Source: Microbacterium protaetiae (lineage in GTDB: Bacteria > Actinomycetota > Actinomycetes > Actinomycetales > Microbacteriaceae). From it: a stretch of 64,000 nt of DNA. Of this stretch, positions 46,956 through 50,836 are shown one piece after another. The notes under the pieces were generated by a model that searched no databases, was not told the origin of the DNA, and saw only the letters and a program-made list of their open reading frames with translations. A program made the position numbers and the translations under genes. The DNA lies in the NCBI RefSeq assembly GCF_004135285.1, contig NZ_CP035494.1, positions 3,720,001 to 3,784,000 on the forward strand, written 5' to 3'. The stretch's first letter is position 1; the number at the start of each line of letters is the position of its first letter.

Positions 46956-47081
46956 CCACGGATCACCATCGTGGGATCGCGTTTCACACTTCATGAAACT
47001 CAATCTCACGCTGCCAGCGCCGGAGGACCGGCTAGACTCGAGGCACAGCACGAGCCGAACGGTACCGAAGGAGATGCCGGC

Positions 47082-48917
47082 ATGACCCCCGCCGCCGAGT
47101 TCAACGCCCCCGTGATCGTCCCCGCCGATCCGACCGAGAACATCACCGATCTACTCGAGGAGCGGGTGGCCGCCACCCCCGATCTGGCACTGTTCGCCAT
47201 TCCTGACGGCGACGGCTGGAAGGATGTCTCGGCCGCCGAGTTCCGTCGCCAGGTGATAGCGCTGGCCAAGGGGTTCGTAGCTGCCGGGCTCGAACCCGGC
47301 GACAAGGTCGGCTTCGTGGCTCGCACCACCTACGAGTGGACGCTCGTTGACTTCGCGCTGTTCTACGCCGGCGCCGTCATGGTGCCGATCTATGAGACGA
47401 GCTCGGCCGCGCAGATCCACTGGGATCTCTCCGACTCGGGCGCCATCGCGTGCCTGACCGAGCTGCCCGAGCACAGCGAGCGGTTCGCCGAGGCGCGCAA
47501 GGACCTTCCGCTCATCCGCATCGCCTGGGCCATGCACGAGGGTGCTCTCGACTCCCTGCGCGCGCAAGGCGAGTCGGTGCCCGACGAAGAGATCGATCGT
47601 CGCCGCCAGATCGCGAACGCCGACGACATCGCCACGCTCATCTACACGGCCGGCACGACCGGGCGCCCCAAGGGCTGCGTGCTCACACACGCGAATTTCG
47701 TCGAGCTGGCCCGCAATTCGGCGCGTTCACTGCACGAGGTCGTCGAGACGCCCGGCGCATCCACTCTGCTGTTCATCACCACCGCGCACGTGTTCGCGCG
47801 GTTCATCTCGATCCTCGACGTGCACGCCGGCGTGAAGACCGGCCATCAGCCCGACACCAAGCAGCTGCTGCCCGCGCTCGGCTCGTTCAAGCCGACCTTC
47901 CTGCTGGCGGTGCCGCGCGTGTTCGAGAAGGTGTACAACTCGGCCGAGCAGAAGGCCGAGGCCGGCCGCAAGGGCAAGATCTTCCGTGCCGCGGCGCGCA
48001 CGGCCATCGAGCACTCGCGGCACGTGCAGGCCGGTACGAAGGTGCCGTTCTGGCTCGGCGTGAAGTTCACCGTCTTCGACAAACTCGTCTACAGCACGCT
48101 GCGCGAGGCCATGGGCGGGCGCGTCGTCTACGCGATCTCGGGGTCGGCGCCGCTCGGCGAGCGGCTCGGCCACTTCTTCGCGAGCCTGGGCGTGCTGGTG
48201 CTCGAGGGATACGGTCTGACCGAGACGACCGCGCCGGCGACGGTGAACCTGCCCAGCAAGACCAAGATCGGCACGGTGGGGCCGGCGCTTCCCGGCGTCT
48301 CAGTGCGCCTGGCCGACGACGGCGAGGTCGAGGTCAAGGGCATCAACGTGTTCCGCGAGTACTGGAAGAACCCCGAGGCGACGGCCGCCGCCTTCGACGA
48401 CGGCTGGTTCCGCACCGGCGATCTGGGTTCGTTCGACGCCGATGGCTTCCTCACCATCACGGGTCGCAAGAAGGAGATCATCGTCACGGCGGGCGGAAAG
48501 AACGTCGCGCCGGCCATCCTCGAAGACCCGATCCGCGCCAACCCGGTGGTCGGCCAGGTGGTCGTCGTGGGCGATCAGCGTCCGTTCATCGCGGCTCTGG
48601 TCACCCTCGACACCGAGATGCTGCCGACGTGGCTGGCCAATAACGGGATGCCCGCCGACATGTCGCTGGAAGACGCCGCGAACAACCCGCACGTGCGCGC
48701 CGAGGTGCAGCGCGCCGTCGACGAGGCGAACAAATTCGTCTCGCGCGCCGAGTCGATCCGCAAGTTCACGATCCTGCCCACGGAGTGGACCGAGGACAGC
48801 GGCCACCTCACACCGAAGTTCAGCATCAAGCGGCACGCGATCCTGAAGGACTTCGCCGGCGCGATCGATGCCATCTACAACGTGCCCGTAGAGACCACGA
48901 ACGTCTCCCTGAAGTAG
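47082..48917 (+). CDS. AMP-dependent long-chain fatty acid--CoA ligase (FadD15-like)
   Basis: 611 aa. ATP/AMP motifs: LIYTAGTTGRPKGCVLTHAN (P-loop), EGYGLTETTAPAT, GWFRTGDLGSFD and GRKKEIIVTAGGKNVAP; C-terminal Lys in TPKFSIKR. The linker and length match the FadD15/ACSBG-type group. ATG 47082 lies 8 bases after AAGGAG; TAGACT at about 47034-47039 is a possible -10. Position matches Rv2187 (fadD15). Intact, unlike the acyl-CoA ligase at 18561-20260. Confidence 0.93.
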   Translation: MTPAAEFNAPVIVPADPTENITDLLEERVAATPDLALFAIPDGDGWKDVSAAEFRRQVIALAKGFVAAGLEPGDKVGFVARTTYEWTLVDFALFYAGAVMVPIYETSSAAQIHWDLSDSGAIACLTELPEHSERFAEARKDLPLIRIAWAMHEGALDSLRAQGESVPDEEIDRRRQIANADDIATLIYTAGTTGRPKGCVLTHANFVELARNSARSLHEVVETPGASTLLFITTAHVFARFISILDVHAGVKTGHQPDTKQLLPALGSFKPTFLLAVPRVFEKVYNSAEQKAEAGRKGKIFRAAARTAIEHSRHVQAGTKVPFWLGVKFTVFDKLVYSTLREAMGGRVVYAISGSAPLGERLGHFFASLGVLVLEGYGLTETTAPATVNLPSKTKIGTVGPALPGVSVRLADDGEVEVKGINVFREYWKNPEATAAAFDDGWFRTGDLGSFDADGFLTITGRKKEIIVTAGGKNVAPAILEDPIRANPVVGQVVVVGDQRPFIAALVTLDTEMLPTWLANNGMPADMSLEDAANNPHVRAEVQRAVDEANKFVSRAESIRKFTILPTEWTEDSGHLTPKFSIKRHAILKDFAGAIDAIYNVPVETTNVSLK

Positions 48918-48923
48918 CCTCTC

Positions 48924-49001
48924 GTGGGAAATTCCATATGGAATTTCCCACGCCACATCAGTTTTCCGGCAATTTCATGTGGTGGAGGAAATCTGATGTG
49001 G
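48924..49001 (+). repeat. left inverted repeat of the cassette
   Basis: Begins with a perfect 28 bp palindrome (half-site GTGGGAAATTCCAT, 48924-48951) and ends with an inner dyad CCACATCA (48953-48960)/TGATGTGG (48994-49001). Bases 48926-49001 match the reverse complement of 50258-50333 at 65 of 76 positions without gaps. The palindrome is 6 bases after the FadD15-like stop and may terminate that transcript. Confidence 0.85.
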
Positions 49002-49042
49002 TCTTCTGGCACGCGGTGTGACGCGTGCGGCCATGCCGCGAA

Positions 49043-49118
49043 GCGGGATGCCGCGAAGTGGGATGCCGCCCGGCGGCGGGATACCCCGAAGTGGGATGCC
49101 GCCCGGCGGGATGCCGCC
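49043..49118. repeat. tandem GGATGCCGC array
   Basis: Four copies of GGATGCCGC (49046, 49061, 49094, 49109) plus a degenerate copy (GGATACCCC at 49079) joined by GAAGT or CCGGC spacers, with 15-base steps in places. It lies between the left inverted repeat and the 3' end of the nuclease-like gene. Confidence 0.8.
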
Positions 49119-49123
49119 CGGCC

Positions 49124-50158
49124 CTACGCGGCAGGAGGACCCGGGTCTGGTACCGGACGCCGCCGGGGCGGCCGGATGCCATACTCGGCCAGTCGCGCGA
49201 TGCAGTCAGCGACCGTGCCGATGTGCTCGTCGGCAAGACGGACGGTCATGCGATCGGTGCGCGCACGGATCCAGTCTTCGCGTTTCTTCTCGGCGACCAC
49301 CACGGCATCAGCGGAGGCCTCGCCGCGCAGCTCATCGTCAACGTACTTGGCCATTCCGTCGAACTCGACCCACCAATGCTCTGCATCGATGTCGGCGACA
49401 TAGAAGGAGCCATCGGGACCCTCGATCCGCACCTGGATGTCGCGAACGGAGATTCCGATCTGCACGATGCGGAGCCTGCTCACGCTCTCCCCCGACGACT
49501 GAGCGCGTCCATCCGCGAAATCGATGACCCATCGGGCCCTGCGTGCTCCGTGCACACCCGGGAGCCGGTCGAGGATCATGTGCATTTCGTGACGCAACCG
49601 CTCCGCAGCATCCACATCGTAAGCCCACGGGTCGTCGGCACTGACCGCCACCTGCCGCAGCGCGGCATCCGCACAGGCAACCGCCGTCTCGAAACTGCAC
49701 GTGCGCGCGACGTCGACGACAGTGCGCGCAAGCGAGGTGCAACGGATGCCGTCGATGTCGACGATGTCGGTGTATTCGAGCGGGACCACATGCCGCAGCA
49801 CGTCGCGCGTGCTCGAAGCCATGGCACCCGGAAGACAGATCACGTGCACCCGCGCAGGAAGGTGATGGAACAGCGGCAGTCGATGCACGACCGCCGCCGA
49901 CTCCATAGCCGCCACGGGACCCGGCTCGAGAGCATCGTCGACGACGGCCATCACATGCGCCAAATGCTGTTGCTCCCAGAACAGTTCCTCCCACAACGAA
50001 TGCGAAATGTACCAGCCGTGGTGAAGGCGGCGTATGTCTCTGCGGCGAACCGCCGTGTGGATCTTCTTGTCCGTCCATCCGTAGGCGATGAGGGTCGCGC
50101 GCGAGGTGATCGACGTACGGATGGCGGCTGGGTCAAACTCTCTGCGCATGACCGACAT
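49124..50158 (-). CDS. AbiEi-like wHTH protein with nuclease-like C-terminal domain, function unknown
   Basis: 344 aa. The N-terminal part (about residues 10-60: RATLIAYGWTDKKIHTAVRR and RDIRRLHHGWYI) resembles the winged helix of type IV antitoxin AbiEi-like proteins; a middle domain follows (TSLARTVVDVARTCSFETAV). The C-terminal part has YVADIDAEHWWVEFDG, then AEKKREDWIRA, a pattern like the D...E-x-K core of DUF559/very-short-patch-repair-type nucleases. Catalytic competence is uncertain. The start may be ATG 50158 or 50149. No partner toxin gene is adjacent. It lies alone inside the inverted repeats, which suggests accessory or defence-type DNA. Confidence 0.65.
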   Translation of the reverse strand: MSVMRREFDPAAIRTSITSRATLIAYGWTDKKIHTAVRRRDIRRLHHGWYISHSLWEELFWEQQHLAHVMAVVDDALEPGPVAAMESAAVVHRLPLFHHLPARVHVICLPGAMASSTRDVLRHVVPLEYTDIVDIDGIRCTSLARTVVDVARTCSFETAVACADAALRQVAVSADDPWAYDVDAAERLRHEMHMILDRLPGVHGARRARWVIDFADGRAQSSGESVSRLRIVQIGISVRDIQVRIEGPDGSFYVADIDAEHWWVEFDGMAKYVDDELRGEASADAVVVAEKKREDWIRARTDRMTVRLADEHIGTVADCIARLAEYGIRPPRRRPVPDPGPPAA

Positions 50159-50257
50159 CATGGCGCCAACGGCCAGCCTCGTGGGGCGCGCGCGTGCAAC
50201 CGGTGGACAACCGATCGCGTGGCGCGGGGTGTGGAGGAGAAGACGCTGGCCGCTTCT

Positions 50258-50334
50258 CCACATCACATTTCCCAGACGACATGAGATTGCCGGAAATATC
50301 ATGTGGTCTGGGAAATTCCATATGGAATTTCCCC
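50258..50334 (-). repeat. right inverted repeat of the cassette
   Basis: Inverted counterpart of 48924-49001. It contains the perfect 24 bp palindrome with half-site GGGAAATTCCAT (50310-50333) and the conserved core TTTCCGGCAAT. The palindrome is 11 bases after the def stop (read on the minus strand) and could terminate def transcription. Confidence 0.85.
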
Positions 50335-50344
50335 CCAGGGCGGG

Positions 50345-50836
50345 TCAGAACCAGTCGGACTCGCGGATCTCCCGCATTGCGACGCGGCGCTCGGCGGGGT
50401 CGAGCCGGTCGATGTAGAGCTTGCCGTCGAGATGATCGGTCTCGTGCTGCAGCGCCTGGGCGAGCACGCCGTCACCCTCCACCTCGATCGGGTTGCCGTC
50501 GACGTCGACGCCTCGCACCTTCGCGTGCGGGTAGCGCAGCACCTCATGCCAGAGGCCCGGCACCGAGAGGCATCCCTCGCCGATCTTCTCGGGTTCGCCG
50601 GATGTCTCCACGAGAACGGGATTGAGCACATATCCGATGTCGCCATCGATGTTGTAGCTGAACGCGCGCAGACCGACCCCGATCTGCGGAGCGGCCACGC
50701 CGGCACGGCCGGGCAGCTGCACGGTCTCGACGAGGTCGTCGACGAGCGCGCGCACTCCCTCATCGAACTCGTCGATCGTCGTGCACTGGCCCCGCAGCAC
50801 GGGGTCGCCGAAGAGGCGTATCTGCCGCACTGTCAT
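50345..50836 (-). CDS. def: peptide deformylase
   Basis: 163 aa Fe2+ hydrolase removing the N-formyl group from new proteins. All three motifs are present: GVAAPQIGV (motif 1), EGCLSVPG (motif 2, metal Cys) and QHETDHLDG (motif 3, metal His pair and catalytic Glu). It starts 3 bases after the MinD-like gene, so is probably cotranscribed. Confidence 0.95.

Follow-up and report, generated by a model that had tools for sequence, protein, structure and literature searches.

A nuclease-like protein family with scattered palindromic repeats in Microbacterium: a REP/RAYT-like arrangement around an AbiEi-like gene

REPs are among the best-known repeats of bacteria. As the cited papers describe them, they are GTAG-tagged hairpins of 20-40 bp whose partner proteins, the RAYTs (TnpA-REP), are HUH/Y1 tyrosine transposases, and the term 'REPtrons' is used in this connection (PMC2817692, PMC8266576, PMC3733652, PMC8049555). 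RAYT genes are reported to lie between inverted REPs, to have dispersed repeats with which they co-evolve, and to evolve fast (PMC2817692), and they are described as vertically inherited (PMC8049555). Throughout this cited literature the partner enzymes are all of one kind. Here we describe a gene, X, whose arrangement follows the logic of REP and RAYT with an unrelated enzyme; X is not a RAYT.

The window, meaning the whole stretch of DNA that was analysed, comprises 64,000 nucleotides of Microbacterium protaetiae (NZ_CP035494.1, positions 3,720,001 to 3,784,000). An initial annotation had proposed a single-gene cassette in it, bounded by inverted repeats that each begin with a palindrome. 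The repeats are real: 48926-49001 is 86% identical to the reverse complement of 50258-50333 along 76 positions, exactly as first reported, and in the repeat finder the arms reach 48921-49001 and 50258-50338 (84% over 81). The core and the CCACAT/ATGTGG dyad are likewise present in the window sequence, as are both exact palindromes (30 and 24 nt), the one in copy 1 being slightly wider than originally described (48923-48952). The features of the locus are as follows, where P stands for a palindrome, H for the core and b for a further half-core in place of a P.

46971..48917, plus strand: FadD15-like acyl-CoA ligase, convergent with X; conserved neighbour
48923..48952, no strand: exact 30-nt palindrome of copy 1 (repeat finder)
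48926..49001, plus strand: repeat copy 1 (P-H-b), P facing FadD15 and b facing X; P 48926-48949, core 48954-48981, second inward half-site to 49001
49033..49122, no strand: tandem GGGATGCCGC repeats at a spacing of 15-18 nt, in the gap that separates the 3' end of X from copy 1
49124..50161, minus strand: gene X, AbiEi-like N-terminal half and PD-(D/E)XK-like C-terminal domain (by motif); 345 codons plus stop
50258..50333, minus strand: repeat copy 2 (b-H-P on the plus strand), inverted to copy 1; core 50278-50305, P facing def
50310..50333, no strand: exact 24-nt palindrome of copy 2 (repeat finder)
50345..50836, minus strand: def, peptide deformylase; conserved neighbour

The preferred start of X is at 50161, and its stop codon occupies 49124-49126. 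Both repeat copies are b-types with b towards X, and the gene is flanked in its own genome by two inverted cognate repeats, as RAYT genes are. The inward b ends were considered as proof of a cassette and rejected, the five close pairs reducing to two independent loci after orthology. In a related genome (G094), the side corresponding to the GGGATGCCGC array of the window carries a different tandem array, of 17 nt.

PADLOC AbiEi models match the N-terminal half of X (residues 24-176, best E 8.3e-11), bearing out the AbiEi-like N-terminus suggested initially, and Pfam AbiEi_4 was matched in 9 of 31 X-family members. Profile searches of X itself gave no match in Pfam or NCBIfam, X matches no transposase model, in agreement with the initial annotation, and nothing informative came from comparing X or its family with PDB sequences. 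The conserved residues of the C-terminal domain fit a PD-(D/E)XK nuclease by motif. Residues E225, E266, D268, K272 and R294 are invariant in 31 homologues and D257 is kept in at least 90% of them; E225, D257, E266, D268 and K272 form the conserved putative active site. The early reading of this half as nuclease-like agrees with the conserved E, D and K residues, with no significant profile match beside them: the C-terminal domains of ten members had no significant match in Pfam, a single DUF559 match standing at E 0.15. The motif order, D..ExDG..K..EKxRED, is one that we take to resemble DUF559 or Vsr-like nucleases and Vsr-like homing endonucleases, although the X family differs from DUF559 in having no significant profile match. 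Literature searches in an open-licence collection, read by titles and openings of abstracts, listed no account that links AbiEi- or DUF559-type proteins to dispersed repeats. The N-terminal half resembles the AbiEi antitoxin of AbiE type IV toxin-antitoxin systems, but X has an added nuclease-like domain, and the second gene of an AbiE pair, encoding the AbiEii nucleotidyltransferase toxin, was not found between def and FadD15. The locus also differs from an insertion sequence or MITE, with no known transposase between the two repeats.

X appears to belong to a family of DNA-binding, nuclease-like proteins that is widespread in actinobacteria. Homologues at 1e-10 occur in 201 of 247 genus genomes, X-family matches at 1e-15 in 112 of 119, and order-wide the same threshold is reached in 65 of 297 genomes and 31 of 94 genera. 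Among the matches listed the closest are those of G094 (about 67-68%) and G098 (56%), the other listed matches being at or below 47%. X evolves faster than its neighbours, with identities in G094 and G098 of 67 and 56%, against 88 and 80% for def and 92 and 86% for FadD15 (partial).

The arms turned out to belong to a family dispersed through this Microbacterium genome (G000, 3.79 Mb). A BLAST search with the 76-bp arm found 27 sites, both window copies included, in 71 overlapping pieces; one more copy, found by pattern at 494311, brings the total to 28. The sequence TTCCATATGGAA occurs 34 times in the 3.79 Mb, always inside repeat copies (control 0), which is far more than chance would give. 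A full element has 84 bp and reads P, 3 nt, H, 3 nt, P, where P is a 24-nt palindrome (GGGAAATTCCATATGGAATTTCCC) and H a 30-nt core, CCACATSA-N14-TSATGTGG; overall the elements have about 78-84 bp, with four half-sites at 19 nt. By script, 19 copies are P-H-P, five b-H-P and four P-H-b, some copies having one P replaced by b. Ten lie between convergent genes, ten between codirectional ones, two between divergent ones and six inside called ORFs, counts that come from a crude ORF caller: several of the six are taken as start-codon artefacts, and window copy 2 was miscalled convergent. Most copies adjoin no X-type gene. By eye the element ends carry no GTAG tag, and the 84-bp element is not a stem-loop of 20-40 bp. 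A RAYT-mobilised REP was rejected as an explanation, Y1_Tnp (PF01797) having no match in the own genome in a search that was positive in 5 of 14 control genomes.

Among 149 genomes, BLAST with the element found only the own genome and, weakly, G094, whereas the pattern CATATG-N13-CACATSA-N14-TSATGTG, with two mismatches allowed, matched in 6 of 366 genus genomes (reversed-pattern control 0). Two of the six are sparse (G065, 1+1; G130, 1+0), and four hold families, with pattern hits of 25+27 in G000, 32+28 in G091, 17+14 in G094 and 10+13 in G098. Each has its own P: CATATG in G000, CGTACG in G091, CATATG with other flanks in G094 and CATGTG/CATATG in G098. In each of the four an X orthologue occupies the def/FadD15 junction and is flanked by repeats left and right, and the recurrence of this junction with its two repeats argues that X has been inherited in place. 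In G091 the X gene (L149:3478-4346) is broken into two frames, possibly by a sequencing error, the assembly being listed at 68% completeness.

We surveyed 80 titled Microbacterium-type def loci, some from metagenome assemblies, of which 79 reach FadD15. By tblastn X was not found at the junction in any of the 80, so the gene is not universally conserved between these neighbours, and their 801,475 bases held no CACATCA core. Since the loci that lack X also lack the core, X at def/FadD15 and the CACATCA-type family go together, and to this extent the initial pairing of gene and repeats holds. In three of the survey loci (L040, L090, L104) 0.9-1.1 kb between def and FadD15 is filled by something other than X.

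To compare copies between the four genomes (28 from G000, 48 from G091, 13 from G094 and 11 from G098, one G091 pattern match at 1652553 being left out as a chance hit), orthologous sites were set by translated matches on both sides of a copy. This gave 34 pairs covering 32 of the 100 copies. Paired copies are 57% identical, against 55% for all between-genome pairs, whereas the same copies are 77% identical to those of their own genome, where all 32 find their best match. The copies show concerted evolution: their letters are those of the host genome and not those of the orthologous site. Form and orientation agree in 25 of the 34 pairs, which are not independent (null 0.49, 0.003); among the 22 pairs that include an asymmetric copy, 13 agree. 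The sites, like the form and orientation of their copies, seem to be old. Either the copies have undergone conversion at their sites, or selection has made each of them follow a changing X; the exact sharing of P favours copying.

The resemblance to REPs and RAYTs as the cited papers portray them has several parts. A single gene lies between two inverted copies, cognate copies are scattered through the genome with species-specific letters, and the gene evolves faster than its neighbours and is inherited in place. It departs from them in the enzyme, X being PD-(D/E)XK-like by motif where RAYTs are HUH/Y1, and in the element, which has about 78-84 bp and four half-sites at 19 nt where REPs are GTAG-tagged and have 20-40 bp.

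Many homologues of X elsewhere in the genus and order share a grammar in their flanks, with half-sites 19 nt apart that are then mirrored, and letters that differ: CGAGTGCACGG in several, and CGAGCCCACAC, CGAGAAACC, CGAGGTCGTACC and more in others. By eye, half-sites on this 19-nt pitch are often CGAG-tagged. Exact 9-mer direct repeats at 19 nt were found in 57 of 164 X flanks and 3 of 526 control flanks, the latter probably mostly coding and so unmatched in intergenic length. The same X flanks gave 11, 14 and 12 at spacings of 17, 18 and 21 nt, and 12 at 38 nt (control 0). With low-complexity words removed, the 19-nt signal remained in 54 of 164, against 3 of 526 and 4 of 370 control flanks; a 20-nt spacing separated more weakly (13 of 164 against 1 of 526 and 7 of 370). 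A left-right inverted-repeat score of at least 18, which uses 400-bp flanks and misses the more distant left repeat of the G098 X, was reached at 42 of 82 unique X loci and at none of 263 and 185 control genes. Either this score or a 19/20-nt direct repeat was present at 61 of the 82, against 4 of 263 and 11 of 185, and 21 X genes had neither signature. X loci without 400 bp on a side were left out of all the flank counts given here, and duplicates out of those for the 164 flanks and the 82 loci. Among 20 lower-scoring paralogues chosen before their flanks were seen, 11 scored at least 18. A simple palindrome measure separated less well, with both flanks at 22 or more in 15 of 26 against 4 of 150, and in 5 of 20 of the low-scoring set.

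One set of letters could be followed across the genus with the pattern CGAGYGCACG-N9-CGAGYGCACG (one mismatch). Of 119 genus genomes 32 carried it, 12 as a single hit and others with up to 24+20, while the reversed control produced three hits over the whole set. Within one element the forward and reverse hits start 49 nt apart, less often 50. Among the hits listed, G029, G033, G047, G059 and G075 have them on both sides of an X gene, and in these five the X-flanking letters are dispersed through the same genome. G631, from another family of the order, has 8+5 hits on eight contigs (control 0, none in four congeners), some of them flanking X to left and right and others lying on seven further contigs. 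The 15 genomes with the strongest X matches (E <= 1e-120) comprise eight of the 15 that have at least three forward hits and seven of the other 104, a tally that leans towards association, since some of these genomes contributed members to the search profile. Repeats also turn up in genomes with little X or none. With 18 candidates per genome scored, G077 (19+17 hits) and G116 (1+1) had no X-family match at 1e-15, the best in G060 (13+13) reached only 1.4e-26, and G003, G004, G042, G060 and G077, all among the 15, had none better than 1e-75. Overall, genes of the family often lie between short four-part palindromes scattered in the genome and seem to co-evolve with them.

We propose that X is a resident partner enzyme of scattered palindromic repeats. 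Its AbiEi-like N-terminal half would read half-sites set 19 nt apart and mirrored about the central core, and its PD-(D/E)XK-like C-terminal domain would cut or nick there. To our knowledge a PD-(D/E)XK nuclease alone does not join strands as a transposase does, and we therefore suggest that the break may be repaired from, or into, other copies, which would spread the repeats and keep those within a genome alike. X and the half-site letters would change in step as species diverge, the gene being inherited in place with one copy on each side. The association of X with the repeats is observed; binding, cutting and X-driven copying are inferred from sequence, and that X recognises the half-sites, cuts at them and drives spread and homogenisation is in our judgement rather probable. 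We are evenly divided on the wider proposition, by which Actinomycetota hold a second, unrelated solution to the REP/RAYT arrangement: a large AbiEi-like and PD-(D/E)XK-like family, each member recognising half-sites in letters of its own, under a grammar common to all, and maintaining and homogenising short chromosomal palindromes by cut-and-repair copying, somewhat like homing without an intron. If true, such a second partnership would make the reasons for keeping repeats and enzyme testable by comparison. Its many protein and half-site pairs with different letters would allow recognition to be decoded, and the homogenisation of scattered copies in a bacterium would be open to direct study.

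X might instead be a DNA-binding regulator whose own operators are the half-sites beside it, while the dispersed copies form a regulon or help to organise the chromosome; the repeats would then have spread in some other way. The AbiEi models carry the names of antitoxins and transcriptional regulators. By the crude ORF calls most copies are close to gene ends and few stand between divergent genes, and part of the sites has been kept over speciation. We nevertheless consider this unlikely, given the invariance of nuclease-like residues among the 31 homologues, the concerted evolution of unlinked copies, which suggests copying, and a 12-nt palindrome centre that recurs unchanged 34 times. Less probable again is a stand-alone defence or selfish nuclease whose repeats serve as control sites or self-markers. 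The PADLOC matches and the abundance of homologues in the genus speak for it, but X had no match in 50,697 phage records and five distant ones in 72,556 plasmid records (one annotated DUF559), no partner gene stands beside it, and repeats lie on both sides of it in four genomes. Beyond the AbiEi-like half, nothing supports the defence role first assigned to the gene.

A transposon-like single-gene cassette with terminal inverted repeats, self-mobilising or non-autonomous, had been the original reading, and the inverted arms and the 80 loci without X agree with it. It is largely refuted by the shared locus and by the dispersed family, a finding that the initial annotation had itself named as counting against it, and we reject it as very improbable: the arms are ordinary members of a family of about 28 copies, most of which flank no X, and X and its repeats have been inherited in place in four genomes. 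Equally improbable is that the repeats act as bidirectional terminators or other RNA hairpins to which X is incidental. Their position near gene ends would suit this, but the inner arms of H do not covary (0.51 in G000; below the shuffled value in G091), there is no Rfam match at gathering score, and the association with X extends across genera; this candidate was rejected on the first two counts. The inner arms of H in G091 are less complementary (0.617) than shuffled pairs (0.675), as though there were an avoidance of perfect hairpins.

Long arrays of 20-nt CGAGTTGTCC-type repeats flank a second X-family gene in G000 (L291, 646800-650700). Its half-sites show no visible dispersal, with two single ones elsewhere in 234 kb searched. 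The right flanks of the X homologues at L217, L219, L227, L232 and L233 lie near a shared sequence with a GCTCCGTGCGCTTGCGCCGGAGC hairpin and a T-rich stretch, which may be a ribosomal protein leader. Finally, three species share the position of a repeat copy within a tsaB-like reading frame, and in each of them the copy has the letters of its own genome (L011:3586, G000 614585; L151:2475, G091 940474; L153:3002, G094 2704501). These in-frame copies are comparable to the palindromes found inside genes of Rickettsia.
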